64,000 bases of DNA from Persicimonas caeni (GCF_006517175.1 NZ_CP041186.1:3685074-3749073); one strand, 5' to 3'; shown: positions 34,333-50,319, numbered from the stretch's first letter. A program made the numbers and translations. The notes: generated from the letters alone by a model not told the origin.

Positions 34333-36180
34333 ATGGGGCAGACAGAACAGCACAAGCTGGAACGGCTCCAAGTGCCGGAGATTGGGGAGATTCTCGATGG
34401 CCGCTATCGCGTGCAGGGCGTCATTGCGACCGGCGGGATGGGCGTCATTTTGCGAGCCGAGCAACTGCCGATGGAGCGGTCGGTGGCGCTCAAGTTGCTG
34501 CATCCGCATATCGCCGTGGCCGATCCCAATCTGGTGGAGCGTTTTGCGCGCGAGGTGCGATTGGCCAAGCAGCTCAACCATCCCAACACGATTCGCCTGT
34601 ACGATTTCGGCAAATCCGAGCAGGGCCTGGTGTATGTGGCCATGGAGATGCTCGACGGGATGGACCTCAAGCGGCGCATCGCCCGCGAAGGGGTCATGAG
34701 TGTGGGCGCTGCTCTCGAGATCACGCGCCAGATGCTCGACGGGCTGGCCGAGGCCCACGCGCGAGGGTTCATCCACCGAGATCTCAAGCCGAGCAACGTC
34801 TTTATCGTCAAGAACCGACGCGGCGAAGACCTGGTGAAGCTGCTCGACTTCGGCATCGCCAAGTCGTTGTCGGACTCGGCGGATCTGACCGGTTCGGGCT
34901 CGATCTGCGGCACGCCTTCGTATGTGGCGCCCGAGTACCTGATGCAAGAGCGGCCAGGCAAGCCGGCCGACATCTACGCAGTCGGGTTGATCTTGCTCGA
35001 GATGCTCACAGGCCGACAGGTCTTCAAGGGCGAGGCGCCGGTGCAGACGATGATGATGCACCTCAAGCTCGATCCGGACATCCCGGACGAGATCGCCCAG
35101 ACGCCACTCGCCGAGGTGATCGAGCGGGCGACCGCCAAAGATCCGAACGCGCGTTATCAAGACGCCGAGGAGATGTACGCCGCCGTTTGTGCGGTGATGC
35201 GACAGGTCCCGGCAGATCTGAAGGTGCATCGGCCCTCGCTCGCAGCGCTGCCGGATGCAACCGAGGCGGTCGACGAGGAGCTCGACTCGGCCGAGCGAGA
35301 GCGGGCGTCGGTCGATACGATCGTGCCCGAGATACCGTCGGGGCTCGACTCGAGCGACGAGCTTCCACAGGCGCAGAGCACACCGTCGTGGGTCGAGCGG
35401 GCCGTCTCCTCCGACATCTTTCGACGTGAGCTCGAGCGCCAGCGCTTCGAAGAAGCCCGTCGGGCAGAGGCGTCGAGCCAACGAGCGTCGGCTGATTCCA
35501 GCGCCGGCCCTCGGGCGATGGCGCATGGTGGCGGGACGCCCGTGGCCGGCAAGATTGTGGCCGGCAAGATAGGCTCCTACGTGCGTTGGGCGGCGGCCAC
35601 GATCGCGCTGGCGGCGCTTGTGGGAGTCGGCGTCTTTTGGGCACTCGATCCGGGCGATGCGCCCGAGTTTGTCACGCCGGTGAGTTCGCCATCTGCTGAC
35701 GACCCGGGCGCCCGTGCATCGACGTCGAGCGAAGCACCTCTCGAGGACGTGGCCGGCAGCGTTTCGGACGAAAAGGAGCAGGCCGAGGCGCGCGGGATTA
35801 GCTTCGATTTGGATACCGATCCTGTGGGCGCGACGGTCTACGTAGGGGAACGTGAGGTGGGCCACACACCCACGACCCACAAGGTCATCGAGGAGAAACT
35901 GCCCCAGACGGTGCGCTTCGAACTCGAAGGATACGCGCCGAAGCAGGTCGAGTTGACCCGGACTTCGTCGCCGATCGTGGTCGAGATTCTGGAGGAGCAA
36001 GAGAGCCAGGCGGTCGAGCCGGCGCGTCGTGCGAGTGCAGAACCTCCCGAGACGTCGCCGACAAAGGCTGAAGGTCAGACCGACACCGCACCAGATTCGC
36101 CTGAAGGCAAGGAGGCCACTGCGGAGCGGCTGTCCGACGAGCGCATCGAGCAGGTGATGGATCAGTACCTGCGCGATTGA
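34333..36180 (+). CDS. Transmembrane Ser/Thr kinase with PEGA domain (kinase A)
   Basis: 615 residues. An N-terminal Hanks-type kinase domain (about 20-275) is complete: glycine loop VIATGGMGVILRAEQ, catalytic lysine in VALKLL, HRDLKPSNVF, DFGIAKSL, and GTPSYVAPEYL. A charged linker leads to a single membrane segment (AAATIALAALVGVGVFWAL, about 418-437). The periplasmic part contains a PEGA domain (FDLDTDPVGATVYVGEREVG to FELEGYAPKQVEL, about 495-545) and a low-complexity Glu/Ala/Pro stretch. It ends in the tail LSDERIEQVMDQYLRD, shared with the other two kinases. First gene of the cluster; the next gene starts 31 bases downstream. The substrates are unknown. Confidence 0.93.
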   Translation: MGQTEQHKLERLQVPEIGEILDGRYRVQGVIATGGMGVILRAEQLPMERSVALKLLHPHIAVADPNLVERFAREVRLAKQLNHPNTIRLYDFGKSEQGLVYVAMEMLDGMDLKRRIAREGVMSVGAALEITRQMLDGLAEAHARGFIHRDLKPSNVFIVKNRRGEDLVKLLDFGIAKSLSDSADLTGSGSICGTPSYVAPEYLMQERPGKPADIYAVGLILLEMLTGRQVFKGEAPVQTMMMHLKLDPDIPDEIAQTPLAEVIERATAKDPNARYQDAEEMYAAVCAVMRQVPADLKVHRPSLAALPDATEAVDEELDSAERERASVDTIVPEIPSGLDSSDELPQAQSTPSWVERAVSSDIFRRELERQRFEEARRAEASSQRASADSSAGPRAMAHGGGTPVAGKIVAGKIGSYVRWAAATIALAALVGVGVFWALDPGDAPEFVTPVSSPSADDPGARASTSSEAPLEDVAGSVSDEKEQAEARGISFDLDTDPVGATVYVGEREVGHTPTTHKVIEEKLPQTVRFELEGYAPKQVELTRTSSPIVVEILEEQESQAVEPARRASAEPPETSPTKAEGQTDTAPDSPEGKEATAERLSDERIEQVMDQYLRD

Positions 36181-36211
36181 GTAGAGGCGCCAAGATGACC
36201 CATCACGACCC

Positions 36212-37231
36212 ATGGATTGGATGATGGATACTGTAAGTCAAAATGAGCGTATCGGCGCCAGGCGCACACGTATGCGGCGCGTCTGTCCCGTCGTGTGCGC
36301 GCTGTTCGTGTTGTGGGGCAGCTTGTCGTGGGCGACGCCGGCCAGTGCCGCTGGAGGAGACGAAGCCGACAAAGTCGAGACGTTTCGCCAGCACGTCGCC
36401 CGAGGCGCCAAGCTTCGCAAGCAGCAACAGCACCGTCAGGCGCTCGATCACTTCGAGAAGGCGCGCGCCATCGCCGATCACCCCAAGTTGATGTTCGTCA
36501 CCGGTGAACTCCACGAGGCGATCGGCGACTGCGCGGCGGCGCGCGCCGACTACGAGAAGGCGCGCTCTGACAAGCGCGCGTCCGAAGCGCTGCGGGCCAA
36601 GCTCGAGGAGGCGTTGGCCAATAACAAAGAGTGCGAGAGCCGCGGCCAGCTCGCCCTCGACTGCTCTCCGGCAGACGCCCAGGTGCGCCTCGGGGAGCGC
36701 GAGTTGCTCTGCGGGGATCTCGTCGAGTTGGAGGCGGGCTCGCACATGCTGATCGCCTCGGCGCCGGGGCATCGAGAGTTGCAGGTGGAGGTGCAGGTCG
36801 AACCCGGCAGCCAAGAGCGCCACGAGGTGCACCTGACCGAGATCCCGCCCCGAGAGGTGAAGCCTGTGGCCGCGGTGCCCGATTGGCTGACCTACAGCGC
36901 ATACGGCGGGATGGGGCTCGGCGCCACGCTCCTCGTCGCCGGGCTTGCATCGGATGCCTCGGCGGCTAGCCGTCAGGAAGAGCTGCACCAGGCACACTCC
37001 CGTGGCGAGTTCGAGCGCACTAATCAATTGGTCTCAGAGGCCGAGTCGGCCCGCACGCGCACCGCACTGCTCTACACGAGTGGAGCGATCGTGGCTGCCG
37101 CAGGTGGATTGCTCTGGGTCTACGACGAAGAGGTGGCTGGATGGGTCGCCGGAGACGGTGAGGCGGCTGTGCAGCCGCAGGTATCGGTGGGCAGCGACGG
37201 AGCGTCGGTGGGGGCGACGATTCGGTGGTAG
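36212..37231 (+). CDS. Exported TPR/PEGA protein with two C-terminal membrane segments (copy 1)
   Basis: 339 residues. A signal-like segment (VVCALFVLWGSLSWATPASAA) is followed by a TPR-like helical region: ALDHFEKARAIADHPKLMFV and AIGDCAAARADYEKARSD (about 60-135). Next is a PEGA-like beta domain with LALDCSPADAQVRLGERELL and MLIASAPGHRELQVEVQVEP. Two hydrophobic segments near the end (AYGGMGLGATLLVAGLASDA and LLYTSGAIVAAAGGLLWVY) enclose a charged loop. A close relative lies at 42200, with the same order and many identical blocks (EKARAIADHPK, DASAxSRQxEL). Likely a periplasmic/inner-membrane partner of the adjacent kinase. Start ATG 36212; ATG 36221 and 36224 are alternatives. Confidence 0.8.
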   Translation: MDWMMDTVSQNERIGARRTRMRRVCPVVCALFVLWGSLSWATPASAAGGDEADKVETFRQHVARGAKLRKQQQHRQALDHFEKARAIADHPKLMFVTGELHEAIGDCAAARADYEKARSDKRASEALRAKLEEALANNKECESRGQLALDCSPADAQVRLGERELLCGDLVELEAGSHMLIASAPGHRELQVEVQVEPGSQERHEVHLTEIPPREVKPVAAVPDWLTYSAYGGMGLGATLLVAGLASDASAASRQEELHQAHSRGEFERTNQLVSEAESARTRTALLYTSGAIVAAAGGLLWVYDEEVAGWVAGDGEAAVQPQVSVGSDGASVGATIRW

Positions 37232-37262
37232 AGGCATCAATGGCCAAAATACGACACGAATC

Positions 37263-38348
37263 ATGACGATAGTGATGGATACAATGGTGACGACATGGAG
37301 GTCTGGGTGGGGCCGCGCGTTGGCGCTGGCTGCGTGTTGGGCTCTCGTGGGGGCGATGCTCGGCGGGTGCGGAGGCTCGGAGGGACGGGTCTGCGAGACC
37401 GACTCGGACTGTGCTTCGGGGGAGCGGTGTGCGACGAGCGGCGGCGTCCTCTTCGGCGAGCGTATCTGTGTCATCGCCGGGCCGATGGAGCCCGCCGACG
37501 CCACTTCCGACACGACCGCTGACGCCGACACCGGTGAGGATGGAGATGCCGACGCGGCGCCAGACACCACTGAGCCAGACACCACTGAGCCAGATACCAC
37601 CGAGCCGGACGCTGCTTTGCCAGACGGAGACGGCGATGGAGTGGCTGATGCAGACGACAACTGCCCGAACGATGCCAACACCACCCAGGCCGACCTCGAC
37701 GGTGACGACCTCGGCGACGCTTGCGACGACGATATCGACGGCGACGGCGTCGCCAACGGCGGCGACAACTGCCCACAAGCCGCCAACTCGGATCAGGCTG
37801 ATGCCGACGGCGACGGTCAAGGTGACGCGTGTGACAGCTTCACCGATAGTGATGCCGATGGGATTCGTGACAGCGCCGACAACTGCCCCGATCGGTCGAA
37901 CCCCGATCAGTCGGACCTCGACAGCGACGGGATTGGCGACACGTGTGACGACGACGCCGACGGCGACGGGATCGACGACGCGACCGACAACTGCCCGCGG
38001 GATGCCAACGCGAGCCAAGTCGATTCCGACGGTGACGGCCAGGGCGACGCGTGTGACGGCGATCTCGACGGAGACGGTGTCGCCAACGCACAGGACAATT
38101 GTGCGAGCCAGAGCAATCCCGATCAGGCCGACCTCGACAACGACGGGGTGGGAGATGTGTGCGACGCGAACCGCGATGGCGACAACAAGAATAACAACCA
38201 GGACAACTGTCCCGACGTCTTCAATCCACCGCAGCGCGATGCCGACAACGACGGTGTGGGCGACGAGTGCGACAACTGCCCAAATACCGCCAATCCGGGT
38301 CAAGAGGATTCTGATGCCAACGGGGTAGGTGACGCGTGCCAGAACTGA
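37263..38348 (+). CDS. Thrombospondin type 3 repeat lipoprotein (copy 1)
   Basis: 361 residues. The signal peptide ends MLGGC, so a lipoprotein. A short cysteine block follows (CETDSDCASGERCATSGGVL), then an acidic DTTEPDTTEPDTTEPD spacer. Seven or so TSP3 calcium-binding repeats of the type DGDGVADADDNCPNDANTTQ continue to the end, each with the DxDxDG loop and DNCP motif. Such repeats fold around many calcium ions and form stiff rods on the cell surface. Start ATG 37263 is the first in frame with the signal; ATG 37275 and 37284 also work. Its last codons overlap the GTG start of kinase B. Paralog at 43123. Confidence 0.87.
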   Translation: MTIVMDTMVTTWRSGWGRALALAACWALVGAMLGGCGGSEGRVCETDSDCASGERCATSGGVLFGERICVIAGPMEPADATSDTTADADTGEDGDADAAPDTTEPDTTEPDTTEPDAALPDGDGDGVADADDNCPNDANTTQADLDGDDLGDACDDDIDGDGVANGGDNCPQAANSDQADADGDGQGDACDSFTDSDADGIRDSADNCPDRSNPDQSDLDSDGIGDTCDDDADGDGIDDATDNCPRDANASQVDSDGDGQGDACDGDLDGDGVANAQDNCASQSNPDQADLDNDGVGDVCDANRDGDNKNNNQDNCPDVFNPPQRDADNDGVGDECDNCPNTANPGQEDSDANGVGDACQN

Positions 38349-39997
38349 CGCAGGAAAATTCGACGCCCCAGGTTCCCCCGAAGCTGCCGCATATCGGGCA
38401 GGTGATCGACGGGCGCTATCGAGTCGAGTCGGTGATCGCGACCGGGGGCATGGGAGTGGTGTTGCGCGCCGAGCACGTGGCGATGGAGCGGGAGGTGGCG
38501 CTCAAGCTTCTGCACCCGCATATCGCTGCTACCGACGCGACGATCGTCGAGCGTTTCCATCGTGAAGTACAACTGGCCAAGACCCTCGACCACCGCAACA
38601 CCATCCGGTTGTATGATTCGGGAAAGACCGAAGAAGGCCTGCTCTTTGTCGCCATGGAGTATCTCGATGGTGAGACGCTCGACGAGCTGCTCGCTCGGCG
38701 GGGGGCGTTGCGAGTGTGGCGCGCCGTCGATCTCACCCTGCAGATGCTCGACGGGCTGGCCGAAGCCCACGCGCGAGACTTCGTCCATCGAGACATCAAG
38801 CCGAGCAATGTGTTCGTCGCCCGAAACCGCCGCGGCGAAGACGTCGTCAAGCTGCTCGATTTTGGCATTGCCAAGCCGCTGGTCGACGCAGGCGCCGACT
38901 TGACCGGCACCGGCACGATCTGCGGCACGCCTAACTACGTGGCGCCCGAGTACTTGCGCTCCGAGCCGATCGGCAAAGCTTGTGACGTATATGCGGTGGG
39001 GCTGATCTTGTTGGAGATGCTGTGCGGCCAACGTGTCTTCGAGGGCGATTCGCCCATGGAGACGATGACGATGCGTCTGCAAACGCGCCCCCAGATCCCG
39101 TTTCTGATCGAGGAGAGTCCGCTCGCCGGGGTGATTCGAAAGGCCGTGGCCATCCAACCCGAGGATCGCTACGCCGACGCCGACGAGATGTACCGAGCGC
39201 TGCGACCCGTCGCCGAACGTCTGCCTGCCGAGTTGCTGGCGCGCCGCGTGGACCGTCCCGAGCCAGTGGGAGCGCCCAGGCCTGCGCCTCAACGCACCGA
39301 GGGGTCGTCGCGATCCGCCACGCGTGTGTCGCTGTACCGAGAAGAGCCTTTCGAGCCGGTCGTGTCGCCGCGAGTGGCCGCGGGCGCCGCTGCCGCGCTC
39401 GCCGTCCTCGCCGGAGTCGGCGTGGCGCTGCTGCTGAGCGACGACGGTGCGTCGTCGTCGGCTGCGCCCGCGACATCTGCACCCGCCGTACAAATCGCCC
39501 CTGTGCATCCCGAGGAGTCCGGCTCCTCCTCGGTCTCATCAACGGAGGTCCCATCAGCGGCAGACTCATCGACCTCGGACTCACCTCCCGTGTCCCTCGA
39601 ATTCGTCGTCGACAGCGAACCGGCCGGCGCGCGTGTCGAGCGTGGCAATGAGTTTTTGGGTTCGACGCCGCTGAGTGTCGAGGTGCCCCGCGACGAGCTG
39701 CCTGCCACGTTGAACCTCGCCAAAGATGGCTTCACGACGGCGTCCGTCGAATTGAGCGCAGACGCATCTGAACTCGTATTCGAGCGTTTGAATCCGCAGT
39801 CCCCTCCCGAAGTGGCGCAACCAACGATGGAAGCGACCGAGTCGGTCGAAGCGCCCAAACAACGTCAGAGCAAGCGCTCCGCGCCTCGCTCCCGCAGACC
39901 TGCCCCCAAGCCTGTCACAGAGCCCAAGCCTGCAGAAACGAGAGACATTTCAGAGCAGAAAGTCGAGAAGGTCCTCGACGAACTCTTGGTCGAGTAA
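38336..39997 (+). CDS. Transmembrane Ser/Thr kinase with PEGA domain (kinase B)
   Basis: 553 residues, GTG start at 38336 overlapping the upstream stop by 13 bases, with AGGTGA just before it, so translation is coupled. The kinase domain is complete: VIATGGMGVVLRAEH, VALKLLHPHIA, FVHRDIKPSNVF, LLDFGIAKPL and GTPNYVAPEYL. The membrane segment is VAAGAAAALAVLAGVGVALLL (about 346-366). It is followed by a Ser/Pro-rich stretch, a PEGA domain (FVVDSEPAGARVERGNEFLG to LAKDGFTTASVEL) and a basic Pro/Arg spacer. The C-terminal tail is EQKVEKVLDELLVE. It sits between the two halves of the duplicated cassette. The basic spacer distinguishes it from the acidic linkers of kinases A and C. Confidence 0.93.
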   Translation: MPELTQENSTPQVPPKLPHIGQVIDGRYRVESVIATGGMGVVLRAEHVAMEREVALKLLHPHIAATDATIVERFHREVQLAKTLDHRNTIRLYDSGKTEEGLLFVAMEYLDGETLDELLARRGALRVWRAVDLTLQMLDGLAEAHARDFVHRDIKPSNVFVARNRRGEDVVKLLDFGIAKPLVDAGADLTGTGTICGTPNYVAPEYLRSEPIGKACDVYAVGLILLEMLCGQRVFEGDSPMETMTMRLQTRPQIPFLIEESPLAGVIRKAVAIQPEDRYADADEMYRALRPVAERLPAELLARRVDRPEPVGAPRPAPQRTEGSSRSATRVSLYREEPFEPVVSPRVAAGAAAALAVLAGVGVALLLSDDGASSSAAPATSAPAVQIAPVHPEESGSSSVSSTEVPSAADSSTSDSPPVSLEFVVDSEPAGARVERGNEFLGSTPLSVEVPRDELPATLNLAKDGFTTASVELSADASELVFERLNPQSPPEVAQPTMEATESVEAPKQRQSKRSAPRSRRPAPKPVTEPKPAETRDISEQKVEKVLDELLVE

Positions 39998-40014
39998 CAC
40001 CGTCTTCCCAAACT

Positions 40015-40044
40015 TTGACACTGTTTCGCCGCCCGTGGTACCGT
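40015..40044 (+). promoter_or_regulatory. Candidate internal promoter before kinase C
   Basis: TTGACA at 40015-40020, an 18-base spacer, then TACCGT at 40039-40044, in the 190-base gap after kinase B. The consensus -35 is good, the -10 moderate. If real, it divides the cluster into two transcripts. Confidence 0.45.
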
Positions 40045-40189
40045 GTCCATAACCGGATCCAAACATTGATTGGACGATTCCCCTCACTTGGCAGTAGCAT
40101 TAGGGGTGGTTTAGAACAGACCTCTCGGAATTGAGGTGGCAGCCGTGTCTGGGCTCGATAGCCCGGCGCGGAACATGTCAGGGTGGCGG

Positions 40190-42169
40190 ATGGCGACGAG
40201 CGAACAGGCAAAACTCGACCGGCTCAAGATGCCGGATATCGGGGACCTGCTCGATGGGCGGTACCGTATTCAAGCGGTACTGGCCACTGGGGGCATGGGG
40301 GTGGTGTTGCGCGCCGAGCAGCTCCCGATGGAGCGGCCGGTGGCGATCAAACTGCTGCATCCACATATCGCCGCGGGGAACGAGAAGCTCTTGGGCCGCT
40401 TCGAGCAAGAGGTGCGCCTGGCCAAGCTCCTCAACCACCCCAACACCATTCGCCTGTACGACTTCGGCGAGTCGAGCGAAGGCCTGGTGTATGTGGCCAT
40501 GGAGTTCCTCGACGGGCGGGACCTGAAGCGATTGATCGCTGAAGAAGGCTGTCTGCCCGTGGGACGAGCCGTCGAAATCACACGACAGATGCTCGACGGG
40601 CTGGCCGAAGCTCACGCTCACGACTTCATCCACCGCGACCTCAAGCCGAGCAACGTCTTCGTCACCGAGAACCGCCGCGGTGAAGACGTCGTCAAGCTGC
40701 TCGATTTCGGCATCGCCAAGAGTCTCGATGGAAGCGACGTCGACCTGACCGGGTCGGGGTCGATCTGCGGCACGCCTGGCTATGTCGCCCCGGAATACCT
40801 GCAAAGTGAGTCGCTCGAGAAGGCGTCGGACATCTATGCGGTCGGGTTGATTTTGCTCGAGATGCTCATCGGCCAACGCGTCTTCAAAGGAGACGGGGCG
40901 GTGCAGACGATGATGATGCACCTGCAGATCGACCCCGACATTCCGCCCGAGATCGAGCGCACCCCGTTGGCGCCGATCATTCGCAAAGCGACGTGCAAGC
41001 GACCCGAGGAACGCTACGCCGACGCCGATCAGATGTTGCAGGCGCTCGAAGCAATCATCGAGGAGCTACCCCAGGACCTGCGCGTCGATGGCTACGAGTC
41101 CCCGCAGTCGCAAGGCGTCTCCGAGAAGGCGGTCACGCCGCCACCCAAGGTCGAGAAAAAGTTGGCAGGGGGGTCCGAGTCCACCTCGCTCGAAGAAGAC
41201 TCGAGTGCATCCATCCCCGAGCCCGAGCCCACGCCGATCTCGGTGGCCAATCATCAATCGGGGCCGCATTCGCTCGAGCCGCCGCAGCCGAAAGCCGATT
41301 CGTCAGCTCTGTCACCACCACCTCTCAAGTTGCCCAAGCCGTCGGTGTCGAAGCGGCCGGCGCCCAAGCCGCCGGTGTCGAAGCCGCCAGTGCCCAAGCC
41401 AGCCCAGTCTGAGCCGAGCCAGTCTGAGCCGAGCCAGTCCGAGCCGAGCCAGTCTGAGCCTGCGAAGCAAGGCGAGCCGGTGCGCGCTGCTGTCCCCGAG
41501 GGCGAGACGGGAGAGTTGGGCGTCGATGACGCCGATTTCTTCGCGGCCGATTCCAACAAGAAGGTCTGGATGATAGGCGGCGGCGCCAGCGCGTGTCTTG
41601 TGATCGCGCTGTTTGGGTTTTTGATGACGGATCCGGGCGAGGCGCCCGAGATCGACGCTGGGGACGACGAGGCGGCTGCTGCCGAGCGTAGCGGCGAGCC
41701 CGAATCGGCAGCCGACGGGGCCGAAGCCGGGGCAACGAGAGCCTTGGCGGCCACAGAAGATGCAGGCGGCGACGCGGCTGGGGCCGACGAGGTCAAAAAG
41801 CTTCGCTTCGATCTCGACACAGATCCGAGCGGAGCGACGGCGCGAGTCGGGGAGCAGGTCCTTGGAACGACGCCGCTGGTCTATCAGGTCGCGGTCGAGG
41901 AGCTTCCACAGACGGTGCATTTCGAGCAAGAGGGGTATGCCGTCAAGACGACCGAGCTGACCGAGGAGAGTTCGCCGATCGTGGTGGAGGTGCTCGACAA
42001 GCTCGACAAGAAGGTCGAGCGCGATGACGGGGCGCGAGGGTCCGAGCGTGCAGGCAGCCGGCGCGGAGGGGCGCGAAATGGCAAGGGCCGCAAGGCCGGC
42101 GGGGAGAGAAAGGAGAAGCTCTCCGATGATAAAGTCGAGAAGGTGCTCGACGAATTTTTGGTGGAGTGA
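40190..42169 (+). CDS. Transmembrane Ser/Thr kinase with PEGA domain (kinase C)
   Basis: 659 residues from ATG 40190, preferred because AGGGTGG lies just upstream and because MATSEQAKLDRLKMPDIG mirrors the start of kinase A; GTG 40136 and ATG 40175 are upstream alternatives. Complete kinase core: VLATGGMGVVLRAEQ, VAIKLL, FIHRDLKPSNVF, DFGIAKSL, GTPGYVAPEYL. The cytoplasmic linker is long and proline-rich, with a tandem SQSEP run encoded by 15-base DNA repeats (41400-41460). Then come the membrane segment GGGASACLVIALFGFLM, an acidic stretch, a PEGA domain (FDLDTDPSGATARVGEQVLG), and the tail LSDDKVEKVLDEFLVE. It opens the second cassette copy. Confidence 0.93.
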   Translation: MATSEQAKLDRLKMPDIGDLLDGRYRIQAVLATGGMGVVLRAEQLPMERPVAIKLLHPHIAAGNEKLLGRFEQEVRLAKLLNHPNTIRLYDFGESSEGLVYVAMEFLDGRDLKRLIAEEGCLPVGRAVEITRQMLDGLAEAHAHDFIHRDLKPSNVFVTENRRGEDVVKLLDFGIAKSLDGSDVDLTGSGSICGTPGYVAPEYLQSESLEKASDIYAVGLILLEMLIGQRVFKGDGAVQTMMMHLQIDPDIPPEIERTPLAPIIRKATCKRPEERYADADQMLQALEAIIEELPQDLRVDGYESPQSQGVSEKAVTPPPKVEKKLAGGSESTSLEEDSSASIPEPEPTPISVANHQSGPHSLEPPQPKADSSALSPPPLKLPKPSVSKRPAPKPPVSKPPVPKPAQSEPSQSEPSQSEPSQSEPAKQGEPVRAAVPEGETGELGVDDADFFAADSNKKVWMIGGGASACLVIALFGFLMTDPGEAPEIDAGDDEAAAAERSGEPESAADGAEAGATRALAATEDAGGDAAGADEVKKLRFDLDTDPSGATARVGEQVLGTTPLVYQVAVEELPQTVHFEQEGYAVKTTELTEESSPIVVEVLDKLDKKVERDDGARGSERAGSRRGGARNGKGRKAGGERKEKLSDDKVEKVLDEFLVE

Positions 42170-42199
42170 GATTTGGTCGCAACATTGCGCACAGAGAGA

Positions 42200-43129
42200 A
42201 TGAATCGGGGGAGTGTAGCGTGCGCGGTCGCTCTGTTGATCGCGCTCGGCCCATTGGGAGCCGGTGCCGAGGAGTCGGCCTCGCTCGAGCAGTTTCGGGC
42301 TCACGTCAAGCAGGCCGTCGAGCATCGAAAGGCGGGTGATTTACGCCAGGCCATCGCCGAGTTCGAGAAGGCGCGTGCCATCGCCGATCACCCCAAATTT
42401 GCGCTGGCCGTCGGCCGCATCTACGAGCAAATCGGCGATTGTGGGGCTGCAAAGGCGGAGTTCGAGCGCGGCCGTGACGATGGGCGAGCCAGTGGAAAGC
42501 TGCGCAAGAAGTTCGACGAGGCGTTGGGCGCCAACGCCGCCTGCGTCGACCGCGGCGAATTGGCCGTCGAGTGCGCCCCCGAAGAGGCCGAGGTGGCGGT
42601 CGGAGAGCAGAGCGAGACGTGCCCAGCCACGTTTACGCTGCCCGCCGGCGAGCACCAGGTGCGTGTGTCGGCGCCTGGGCGAGTGGCCCAGACCGTGACG
42701 GTGAGCGTGGAGCCGGCCGGCCAGCATCGCCGAAAGGTCGAACTCGGCACTCCCTGGCAAAAACCTGCAGTGACTTATACCAAATACGGCGCGATTGGGC
42801 TTGGCGGCGCGCTCATCCTCGGCGGCATCATCTCGGATGCCTCGGCCAGCTCACGCCAAGACGAACTCGCCGCGGCGTCGGCCGACGGCGATGTCCGCCG
42901 CGCCGAGGCACTGGCCGCCGAAGCTGATTCGGCGCAGGGGCGCACGGTCGCGCTGTACACGGTGGGCGCCCTGTTCGCCGCCGGAGGTGCTGCGTTGTGG
43001 GTCTACGACGCCGAGGTCGAGGCGTGGCTCGGCGGCGGTGACGCCGTCGGCGCGAAGGGCGACTCTCAGGGCGCTCAGGTGGGCGTTTCGACCAATGGTA
43101 CGGGCGTTTGGGGGACGGTGCGATGGTAG
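42200..43129 (+). CDS. Exported TPR/PEGA protein with two C-terminal membrane segments (copy 2)
   Basis: 309 residues. Signal peptide MNRGSVACAVALLIALGPLG with cleavage near AGAEE. TPR-like helices (AIAEFEKARAIADHPKFALA, DCGAAKAEFERGRDDGR), then a PEGA-like domain (LAVECAPEEAEVAVGEQSET, VRVSAPGRVAQTVTVSVEPA). Two hydrophobic segments (YGAIGLGGALILGGIISDAS, ALYTVGALFAAGGAALWVYD) close the protein. Its domain order equals that of the protein at 36212, and the gap to the preceding kinase is nearly the same (30 versus 31 bases). Start ATG 42200 follows AGAGAG; TTG 42173 is an alternative. The next gene's ATG overlaps its stop. Confidence 0.8.
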   Translation: MNRGSVACAVALLIALGPLGAGAEESASLEQFRAHVKQAVEHRKAGDLRQAIAEFEKARAIADHPKFALAVGRIYEQIGDCGAAKAEFERGRDDGRASGKLRKKFDEALGANAACVDRGELAVECAPEEAEVAVGEQSETCPATFTLPAGEHQVRVSAPGRVAQTVTVSVEPAGQHRRKVELGTPWQKPAVTYTKYGAIGLGGALILGGIISDASASSRQDELAAASADGDVRRAEALAAEADSAQGRTVALYTVGALFAAGGAALWVYDAEVEAWLGGGDAVGAKGDSQGAQVGVSTNGTGVWGTVRW

Positions 43130-43890
43130 ACAATCCCATGAAACGAATGCGACGTGCGTGTGTGCTGGTGGTGCTGGCGGTGGGCCTGCTCGGCTCGACG
43201 GGCTGCGGCGGAGAGGGGCAGACGTGCTCGTCGGACGCCGACTGCGCCCAGGGCTACAGTTGTGTGTCGAGCGGCGGCGTCTTCTTCGGAGACAGCGTGT
43301 GTGTCGTCACCGACGAGGCGGCGCTCACAGACGCCGGCAGTGGCGGCGATACCTCGAGCGCGGACGTCGGCGGCGACACCGCTGCGGTCGACTCGGACGA
43401 CGATGGCGTGGGTGACGCGCAGGACAATTGCCCCCAAGTGGCCAATACCGATCAGGCCGATCTCGACAGCGACGGTGTGGGCGACGCGTGTGACGACGAC
43501 CGCGACGGGGACACCATCCCCGACAGCTCGGACAACTGCGCGGAGGCTGCCAACGCCGATCAGGCCGACACCAATGGCGACGGCATCGGCGACGCCTGCG
43601 ATCCCGACATCGACGGCGATGGGGTGGCCAACGGCAGCGACAACTGCGAGACGGTCGAGAATATCGACCAGCGCGACGTCGATCGCGACGGCATCGGTGA
43701 TGCCTGCGATGACAACAGCGACGGCGACAACCATCCCGACGCGACCGACAACTGCCCCTACGACTTCAACCAGCCCCAGAAGGACTTCGACGGCGACGGG
43801 GTGGGCGATGTGTGCGACAACTGCCCCGCCACGGCCAACGCCGATCAGGCCGACGCCGATGGCGACGGGGTGGGCGACGTCTGCGAGTAA
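43123..43890 (+). CDS. Thrombospondin type 3 repeat lipoprotein (copy 2)
   Basis: 255 residues. The signal ends LLGSTGC (lipidation cysteine). As in copy 1, it is followed by a cysteine block (CSSDADCAQGYSCVSSGGVF), a short acidic spacer and about five TSP3 repeats (DSDDDGVGDAQDNCPQVANT and similar), ending DADGDGVGDVCE. It is shorter than the copy at 37263 by roughly two repeats and lacks the DTTEP spacer. Start ATG 43123 overlaps the TAG of the TPR/PEGA gene (ATGGTAG) and has GGGGA upstream, so it is translationally coupled. Last gene of the cluster. Confidence 0.87.
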   Translation: MVDNPMKRMRRACVLVVLAVGLLGSTGCGGEGQTCSSDADCAQGYSCVSSGGVFFGDSVCVVTDEAALTDAGSGGDTSSADVGGDTAAVDSDDDGVGDAQDNCPQVANTDQADLDSDGVGDACDDDRDGDTIPDSSDNCAEAANADQADTNGDGIGDACDPDIDGDGVANGSDNCETVENIDQRDVDRDGIGDACDDNSDGDNHPDATDNCPYDFNQPQKDFDGDGVGDVCDNCPATANADQADADGDGVGDVCE

Positions 43891-47948: not shown

Positions 47949-48911
47949 ATGAAAGAGGCGCACAACAATCTAGTGGTCCTCGCCGCCAAGGCAGGGGGGC
48001 ACGTGACCGCGACGCTGGTGATTGCAGCGCTGCTGGGCGTTGTGGCTGCCGATCTGAGCGCGCTCGAGCTTCTGTTCCAGGCTACCTGGGCCGGCGGCTA
48101 CGATCCGAATTGGGGCGCGCTGGCGCTGCACCTGGGCCTGTCGGCCGCGGTGTGGGGCTCGGGCGTCGTCCTGTGGCGCGTGTTGCAAAAGCGCGGCAAA
48201 AAGGCGGTCAAGGTCTACAAGGCGCGCGGAGCGGTGATGCTCGAGACGCTCGTGGCGCTGGTTCCCTTTTTGCTGCTCACCAGCGGCATCGCTCAGTACG
48301 CCATGATCAACGTGGCCGGCATTATCAGCGATCTGGCGGTCTATCAGGCCGCGCGCACGGCGTGGCTGTGGCAGCCGGAGGCCGAGATCGGCCGCAACGG
48401 CGTCAACATGGACGATGTGGAGTTCCGAGCGCGCACAGCCGCGGCGCTGACCTTGGCGCCGACGGCGGCGTCGAACTTCACGGTCGGTCGCAACAACCCG
48501 GGCGGCAGTGGGCCTCCCTTTCGGCGCATCCGCACGGCGGTGGCCGCCAGCTTCAACCAGTTTCCGGTCTCCGGCGAAAACTTCTGGATCCAGACCAACT
48601 ACAACTGGGCGTTCTTCGGCAACCAGAACATGAACGCCAGCGCCGAAAACCTGACGTTTACGCGGGCCCTGGACTCGGATTCATTTTACCTGCGCGCCGG
48701 TCGCAAGGTGACCTCGGCGTGGATGTGCCTCGAAGACTTCGAAATTATCGACGAGAACGACGAGGTGGGCGCGCGCTTCACCTACCAGTACGCGCTGCTG
48801 TTCCCGTGGTTCGCCTACATCTTTGGCGACACGGCGACCATCGCGACCCGTTTTGCGCACCACATGCCCATTCGGCGTGAGATGACGTTCCCCGAGCAGC
48901 CGGATATGTAA
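47949..48911 (+). CDS. TadE-like membrane protein (tad-like block, gene 2)
   Basis: 320 residues. Two N-terminal membrane segments (VTATLVIAALLGVVAADLSA, ALHLGLSAAVWGSGVVLWRV) are followed by a pseudopilin-type segment: KARGAVMLETLVALVPFLLL, with the charged RGAxxxE entry and a hydrophobic stretch (about 93-115) as in TadE/TadG minor pilins. The extracytoplasmic domain is rich in Asn, Phe and Trp. Start ATG 47949 follows GAGGAAAG. The 162 bases before it contain no gene. Probably co-transcribed with the next three genes (1-, -17- and 12-base spacings). Confidence 0.7.
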   Translation: MKEAHNNLVVLAAKAGGHVTATLVIAALLGVVAADLSALELLFQATWAGGYDPNWGALALHLGLSAAVWGSGVVLWRVLQKRGKKAVKVYKARGAVMLETLVALVPFLLLTSGIAQYAMINVAGIISDLAVYQAARTAWLWQPEAEIGRNGVNMDDVEFRARTAAALTLAPTAASNFTVGRNNPGGSGPPFRRIRTAVAASFNQFPVSGENFWIQTNYNWAFFGNQNMNASAENLTFTRALDSDSFYLRAGRKVTSAWMCLEDFEIIDENDEVGARFTYQYALLFPWFAYIFGDTATIATRFAHHMPIRREMTFPEQPDM

Positions 48912-48912
48912 G

Positions 48913-50319
48913 ATGACGACCGACTCGTACGGCGAGCCCGGTCAACGAGAGAGAGCCATGAGACGAGAGACACTCCTGCAAAAAATGCGCGACTTGATGA
49001 TGCGTACGCACCGCGACGAGAGCGGTGCGATCCTCATGTTGTGCTTTGCGGCGTGTCTGTTCTTGTTCATGGTTAGCTTGATCATCTTCGACGCCGGCGC
49101 GCTGTCGCGCGACAAGGTCGACGTGCAGATGGCCGCCGACACCGCCGGCTACAGCCAGGCGGCCGTCAAAGCGCGGGCCATGAACATGGTCGCGTTTGCC
49201 AACGTGGGCAAGCGCACCATCAGCGGCATCCGCAACATGTACTACACCCAGTACCCGAGCTACATGAGCTGGCTCGACGGCCAGTGCAGTCGGTGCTGCT
49301 GTGGGTGGTTCTGTGGCTGTTGGAATGCGTGCTTCAACTGTATCGGCAACTGGATCTCACTGGTGCCCATCTTCGAGGGTATCGACTACATCTTCTTTAT
49401 CATCGGGCGTATCGCCGGGGATACGTTGACCGATCATCTGGAGGCGCTCGACACCTACCAAAAAGAGATGGTCGAGTATGCGCCGTACTGGGCGTTGGGC
49501 GAGGCGGTCATCCGCGGGGTGCGAAACGGCGCCAACGTGGTCACCACCTTCCCGATGCCGGATAACACCACCTACGGCAAATTACCGCTCAAAAAGGACA
49601 CCGGTTTCCCGGCGGCCGTCGAGACGTGCCTGGCGCCGACCTACGTGTGGAACCCGTCGAGCCCGGGCAGCCTTTTGGAGTGGCAGCGCAACTTCCAGGA
49701 ACTCAAGAACAATAGCGTCAGCTCGCCGAATATCGCCTCGAAGGGGCCGCGAGAAGTGGTCAGTATTGCCAACTCGTGGACGGGCTGCTTTTTGGGAGCG
49801 CTCCTGCCCAAAGAGGCCGAACTGTCACCGCCGTACTACCTGACGGCGACGGGCGACTCGGGTGAGGCGTACATGAAGAAGTCCAACATCATCTGGAGCT
49901 ATCGCTTCAACGAGGACTATGCCGGCCAGCTTCGCGACAACTACGACGCCGTGATCGACAAGGACTACTCGACCAACATTATCGGCCTGCCCGAAGGCGG
50001 CGTGTGGAGCATGGCGCGCAGCGAGATCTACTACAAGCCGGACAACGACCCGAACCTGTTCGAGGGCCCCCACGCCATGTGGATGTTCCACCCGAGTTGG
50101 ATCGGCAAGCTGCGCCCGGTAACGCTCAAAAATGAGGACATGCCCGTCGACCCGAGCGACATGTGGTCGGAGGCGCGTGGGCTGGCGATGAAGCAGGCGC
50201 CGCTATTCGGCGTGGACATGGGCACCATGTTCAACGACCTGCTCTACATGGAGAAGGTCAGCCGGGGCATGGACGGCAAAATTGACGGCAAGGAGGTGCT
50301 CGATGGCATCGCCAAATGA
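48913..50319 (+). CDS. TadG/Tad-domain-like protein with a cysteine cluster (tad-like block, gene 3)
   Basis: 468 residues. After a basic N-terminus comes DESGAILMLCFAACLFLFMV (about 35-55), the Tad/TadG N-terminal pattern in which an exported protein keeps one hydrophobic helix, followed by DKVDVQMAADTAGYSQAAVK, a typical TadG motif. At residues 125-143 eight cysteines occur within 19 positions (CSRCCCGWFCGCWNACFNC), then two more hydrophobic stretches and a large soluble domain. Start ATG 48913 lies two bases after the upstream stop; ATG 48958 has a better ribosome site (GAGAGAG). The cysteine knot could bind a metal or form disulfides outside the cell. Confidence 0.7.
   Translation: MTTDSYGEPGQRERAMRRETLLQKMRDLMMRTHRDESGAILMLCFAACLFLFMVSLIIFDAGALSRDKVDVQMAADTAGYSQAAVKARAMNMVAFANVGKRTISGIRNMYYTQYPSYMSWLDGQCSRCCCGWFCGCWNACFNCIGNWISLVPIFEGIDYIFFIIGRIAGDTLTDHLEALDTYQKEMVEYAPYWALGEAVIRGVRNGANVVTTFPMPDNTTYGKLPLKKDTGFPAAVETCLAPTYVWNPSSPGSLLEWQRNFQELKNNSVSSPNIASKGPREVVSIANSWTGCFLGALLPKEAELSPPYYLTATGDSGEAYMKKSNIIWSYRFNEDYAGQLRDNYDAVIDKDYSTNIIGLPEGGVWSMARSEIYYKPDNDPNLFEGPHAMWMFHPSWIGKLRPVTLKNEDMPVDPSDMWSEARGLAMKQAPLFGVDMGTMFNDLLYMEKVSRGMDGKIDGKEVLDGIAK

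Follow-up and report, generated by a model that had tools for sequence, protein, structure and literature searches.

A duplicated cassette of PEGA kinase, TPR/PEGA protein and four-cysteine lipoprotein in Persicimonas caeni, a candidate envelope sensor

The window, a stretch of 64,000 nucleotides of the Persicimonas caeni genome, harbours seven co-oriented genes at positions 34333-43890: kinA, tpr1, tsp1, kinB, kinC, tpr2 and tsp2. All are present in the order given by the initial annotation of this DNA, which described them as a duplicated set of PEGA kinase, TPR/PEGA envelope protein and lipoprotein with TSP3 calcium repeats. The features of the locus are as follows.

34333..36180, + strand: kinA, Hanks-type Ser/Thr kinase (25-276), predicted TM helix (~414-437), predicted periplasmic PEGA domain (494-542), disordered tether and C-terminal helix
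36145..36177, + strand: C-terminal tail of kinA, IEQVMDQYLRD, predicted as an isolated helix (602-613)
36212..37231, + strand: tpr1, predicted signal peptide, TPR (49-138) and PEGA-like beta domain (144-207)
within 36212..37231, + strand: C-terminal part of tpr1, predicted long helical hairpin through the membrane (224-312), then strands ending in Trp
37263..38348, + strand: tsp1, lipoprotein with four-cysteine base, acidic linker and ~7 TSP3 repeats
37365..37478, + strand: four-cysteine base module of tsp1, a profile match that includes the lipobox Cys; the first module Cys lies 8 residues after the lipobox Cys
38336..39997, + strand: kinB, the third kinase with PEGA; shares the C-terminal tail (39962-39994) and lacks a TPR partner of its own
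40190..42169, + strand: kinC, paralogue of kinA, with kinase domain, TM, PEGA-like domain and tail VEKVLDEFLVE (42134-42166)
42200..43129, + strand: tpr2, paralogue of tpr1 (43% identity)
43123 or 43138..43890, + strand: tsp2, lipoprotein with four-cysteine base and 5 TSP3 repeats
43201..43311, + strand: four-cysteine base module of tsp2

From kinA to tsp2, the intergenic gaps are 31, 31, -13, 192, 30 and -7 or +8 bases. The annotated kinase-to-TPR gaps of 31 and 30 bases are found; at the lipoprotein junctions, tsp1 and kinB overlap by 13 bases, the tpr2/tsp2 spacing is -7 or +8 (by start), and tpr1 and tsp1 are 31 bases apart. In relatives too, a lipoprotein gene commonly lies directly 5' of a kinase gene, as tsp1 does of kinB. 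Homology places the start of kinC at the ATG at 40190 and not at 40136. The 192 bases between kinB and kinC suggest two transcription units, with a promoter and terminator scan being compatible with either option. The 7-base overlap between TPR and lipoprotein genes, which in the window holds only for the start at 43123 and is also seen at L125, L127, L128 and L144, was discarded as evidence of translational coupling because the terminal Trp codon (TGG) of the TPR proteins always makes an NTG in the other frame. Elsewhere in the window (47949-50319), two genes lie 3' of a trigger-factor-like gene, the second of which (48913-50319) gives a weak match to Tad pilus assembly, slightly under the cut-off.

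Pfam detects the Pkinase domain in kinA, kinB and kinC (E about 1e-46), and the catalytic residues K54, H148-R149-D150, N155 and D172-F173-G174 are conserved across 23 cassette kinases. Hydropathy peaks and the predicted structure place a single TM helix (414-437 in kinA) ahead of the PEGA domain. By fold and by their catalytic Lys, HRD and DFG, these proteins are Hanks-type kinases, with a TM helix and an extracytoplasmic sensor domain by prediction. They are a small subset of about 105 Hanks kinase matches in the P. caeni genome. The annotated presence of PEGA in both kinases and TPR proteins is confirmed above the Pfam cut-off for kinA, kinB and tpr2, while kinC remains below it (19.1 vs 20.8 bits) and tpr1 escapes Pfam; for the latter, alignment and an AlphaFold model reveal a beta domain in the corresponding position.

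With regard to the TPR proteins, their repeats fall below Pfam cut-offs by sequence and are clear in the model (pLDDT 93-98). In the tpr1 model (mean pLDDT 83.5), the TPR is followed by a transthyretin-like beta domain and then by two helices of 40-46 residues, which form a hairpin and hold the membrane segments; the two C-terminal strands have low confidence. The TPR part of the model matches peptide-binding TPRs, namely PcrH-PopD, Tah1-Hsp90 and CHIP, so that the predicted fold is of the peptide-binding type, with binding of a partner peptide being putative. Given a signal peptide, the tip of the hairpin would point into the cytoplasm and could touch the kinase domain there. Most C-termini of these TPR proteins are strand-like, with a terminal Trp (SPTGIS..LRW-like).

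The paired copies are homologous: kinA and kinC share 70% over the kinase domain, the PEGA part being alignable too, tpr1 and tpr2 share 43% over nearly their full length (9e-64), and tsp1 and tsp2 share 51%, non-repeat N-terminus included (all BLASTP), values at which chance similarity is ruled out. In trees, which cover kinases and TPR proteins only since the lipoprotein module common to all has just 39 residues, the two window copies are nearest neighbours for both proteins, with the P. caeni locus L088 outside. Kinase and TPR trees are correlated (Mantel r 0.68, p 1e-4) and share 7 of 19 splits, where 0.26 are expected by chance and the maximum in 2000 permutations was 3. The pairs being co-linear and homologous and the two trees agreeing, kinA–tpr1–tsp1 and kinC–tpr2–tsp2 arose by block duplication, as initially proposed; the unrelated histories that would have spoken against it are not seen for the kinase and TPR copies. 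kinB groups with kinA and kinC, the branching order among the three being weakly supported (78/32).

The arrangement recurs beyond the window. Strong TPR matches beside kinases identified two further kinase–TPR/PEGA loci in the P. caeni genome; L088 has two lipoproteins, with TSP3 and FG-GAP propellers, next to its kinase and TPR protein, and in L089 the kinase and TPR protein are accompanied by one lipoprotein that shows further repeats besides a weak VWA match. A search with a two-sequence TPR alignment retrieved no relatives. At E below 1e-15, TPR matches are present in 18 of the 96 related genomes searched (11 of 21 within the organism's own family), and 10 further genomes of that family have related loci. 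Within the family, there are 23 pairs of adjoining kinase and TPR genes, spread over 11 genomes. A four-cysteine lipoprotein lies beside 17 of these, upstream or downstream, and two of the six pairs without one are at contig ends. Class-level matches such as L145-L147, where a related TPR protein has no kinase beside it, were left out. Outside the family, kinase–TPR pairs exist without module or tail (L138-L143). A more distant pair in P. caeni, L245 (G000:C1:7064000-7070500), also lacks the module, suggesting that the kinase–TPR pairing is older than the lipoprotein link.

In the lipoproteins, Pfam finds 7 TSP3 stretches in tsp1 and 5 in tsp2. Homologues instead conserve a module of 39 residues with four cysteines, which follows the lipid anchor directly and has the pattern GC.....C..D.DC.....C...GG.....(V/I)C; the four cysteines are probably disulfide-bonded. 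The P. caeni genome (8.05 Mb) holds six full-length copies (E below 4e-14; next match 8e-4), five of them in kinase–TPR loci. The sixth (L244:6922-8079, G000:C1:4010053) is an orphan lipoprotein with MopE metal-binding repeats and no kinase or TPR gene of the cassette type within the surrounding 15 kb. Among 50 module lipoproteins, the lipobox precedes the module by 5-9 residues (11 in a single case) and Asp is absent from +2 throughout, so that by this rule, derived from E. coli, they are probably placed in the outer membrane. The module is not explained by any Pfam or PDB family. Membership in WAP, Squash and Dickkopf_N was rejected, the matches being weak and partial (best Pfam E 6.9e-5, for Squash; best PDB 0.005), and for a module member shown in full all Pfam matches are below cut-off. 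Likewise, tsp1 and tsp2 do not qualify as MtsC, the TSP3 MYXO-CTERM cohesion protein (NCBIfam 207 and 187 bits vs a cut-off of 350). At one locus each in G005 (L277) and G017 (L282), two four-cysteine lipoproteins lie close together.

Behind this base, the heads are exchangeable. Relatives carry RCC1 propellers (L121, L125, L127, L128, L132), GLUG and STIG1 repeats (L123, L124) or Kelch (L280), and orphan lipoproteins carry WD40/PQQ propellers (L249, L251) or a LamG-like domain (L253). Overall, heads in homologous cassettes are usually of the RCC1, FG-GAP, Kelch, VWA and GLUG types, and strong TSP3 is found in P. caeni only. The idea, built on the initial annotation, of a sensor defined by calcium-loaded TSP3 rods, with calcium as its signal, draws on the TSP3 repeats behind the base of both window lipoproteins and on two more P. 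caeni lipoproteins with some TSP3. However, in the majority of homologous cassettes the head is a different one and TSP3 is not significant, and the repeats occur in many other P. caeni genes (150 matches in the genome) and may be just a stalk. Comparison of homologous lipoproteins thus led TSP3 to be dropped as the conserved part in favour of the four-cysteine base, and calcium sensing appears improbable as the general function. The annotated adjacency of the three families extends beyond P. caeni in its general form, a kinase–TPR/PEGA–lipoprotein cassette in 11 genomes, whereas cassettes in the strict sense, with strong TSP3, are almost confined to this organism.

Within the family, the 11 of 21 genomes that contain the module are precisely those with the TPR partner, and the other 10 have neither. 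Among 143 genomes it is found in exactly those 11, and among 379 across the phylum in the 11 plus one marginal partial match. Circular training of the module model is not a concern, since a model built from the P. caeni genome alone returns the same 11 genomes. At the genus level, 7 of 13 genera have both module and TPR protein and 6 have neither (Fisher 2.8e-6 by genome, about 6e-4 by genus). It could be argued that these genes do not form a functional unit and are neighbours kept adjacent by common descent and by local duplication within a single lineage; the confinement of the cassette to one family and the part of the similarity that is paralogy within the P. caeni genome would fit. Nevertheless, the exact co-occurrence spans 13 genera, and the association has survived changes in gene order, as some genera have the lipoprotein gene upstream of the kinase and others have it downstream of the TPR gene. 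This explanation, already disfavoured, seems very unlikely.

The kinases share a C-terminal tail, a VDxLLDxxL-like motif in the last 9-13 residues, found in 22 of 23 cassette kinases and in 0 of 66 other kinases of the P. caeni genome. Its expectation of 0.0015 per shuffled tail is descriptive, as the motif was written after seeing the sequences. A better control is the negative set from the whole genome, although common ancestry among the positives weakens it: the five P. caeni kinases with the tail are each other's closest relatives, and part of the contrast of 5/5 vs 0/66 is therefore ancestry. In the prediction, a disordered tether leads into the tail, which forms a helix (pLDDT about 80), and the tail's conservation behind tethers that are otherwise poorly alignable is a further point against mere neighbourhood. 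A role as docking peptide for the TPR domain of the adaptor is plausible. At L280 the TPR protein has no PEGA domain and its kinase still has the tail, pointing to the TPR or the hairpin as the tail's partner. At L135, TPR partner and lipoprotein are present and the tail is absent.

We give a probability of roughly 0.55 to the reading that each cassette is a three-protein envelope sensor, with signals passing from lipoprotein to TPR/PEGA membrane adaptor to Ser/Thr kinase. The lipoprotein, probably in the outer membrane, would combine the four-cysteine base at the lipid anchor with an acidic linker and an exchangeable head (a TSP3 rod here, elsewhere often a beta-propeller) that may meet a ligand, a surface or mechanical stress. 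The adaptor would be periplasmic save for its helical hairpin through the inner membrane. In the kinase, the catalytic domain would be cytoplasmic, and the PEGA domain, the disordered tether and the short conserved helix periplasmic. The tail helix most likely docks on the TPR groove of the adaptor and the lipoprotein base on the TPR/PEGA protein, such that a change at the head would alter kinase association and activity. Of the single envelope signalling system of the initial annotation, the conserved set of three proteins is borne out in 11 genomes, whereas interaction and signalling between them are putative.

The flow could also run from inside to outside, with the base as a sorting or anchoring tag, the TPR/PEGA protein as an assembly factor or escort for lipoproteins, and adhesin display being timed by the kinase. 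TPR proteins are common assembly factors, the tpr1 model also matches LpoP and chaperone TPRs, and many orphan lipoproteins carry the base with unrelated heads, as a sorting tag would. On the other hand, the kinase owns a conserved periplasmic tail, tether and PEGA domain, which suggests that it is itself part of an envelope complex, and it shares its history with the TPR protein. Display is thus a less likely account, though one to be kept in view.

Under the sensor reading, several lipoproteins, some encoded elsewhere, may share one kinase–adaptor hub. Orphan lipoproteins exceed hubs in some genomes (for example, 16 modules vs 6 TPR matches in G020), many of those assemblies being fragmented, and this excess fits hub sharing and a general sorting tag equally. 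P. caeni is a facultative predator. A tentative extension is a modular receptor repertoire, in which cassette and orphan lipoproteins with the same four-cysteine plug and propeller, lectin-like or rod heads would share or compete for a few TPR/PEGA–kinase hubs, and the predator would sense several surfaces or prey via the same kinases.

In the Rcs relay (RcsF lipoprotein–IgaA–RcsD/C), a lipoprotein reports the envelope state to an inner-membrane protein controlling a kinase; this is a phosphorelay of histidine kinases whose proteins are unrelated to the cassette, and the likeness serves as a lead. Another parallel is PknG–GlnX–GlnH of Actinobacteria, likewise a three-gene operon of Ser/Thr kinase, membrane adaptor and sensor lipoprotein, where the lipoprotein senses amino acids, the membrane protein links it to the kinase and a TPR–peptide contact between kinase and adaptor has also been proposed (PMC6069109). 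The cassette shares the conserved cluster of kinase, membrane protein and lipoprotein. Nonetheless, it falls outside that system because its kinase has a TM helix whereas PknG is soluble, its TPR is on the partner and not on the kinase itself, and its lipoprotein heads (TSP3, RCC1, FG-GAP, Kelch, VWA and others) are not solute-binding as GlnH is; PEGA, four-cysteine base and kinase tail are all absent from PknG–GlnX–GlnH. The best reading is that the cassette works like PknG–GlnX–GlnH, built from different parts. M. tuberculosis PknD (e.g. PMC3322341) is likewise a transmembrane Hanks kinase tied to an extracytoplasmic beta-propeller, which there is within the kinase, whereas cassette propellers and rods are exchangeable and sit on a separate lipoprotein. 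Same-class pairs (L138, L139, L140, L142, L143) place a Hanks kinase beside a TPR protein of the same broad family, with no tail motif or four-cysteine lipoprotein found at these loci. The open-access literature searched, to which most subscription papers do not belong, holds no description of this composition (PEGA with kinase, TPR, lipoprotein, Bradymonadales).

The activation of most bacterial Hanks kinases is an outstanding question (PMC6069109). For such kinases, the co-occurrence, the docking-like tail and the constant base of the lipoproteins point to specific partners and to sites for testing; a single minimal copy of the cassette is available in a cultured predator, Bradymonas sediminis FA350 (G008, L125). 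Furthermore, the exchangeable heads suggest that a wider sensing range could arise without new kinases.
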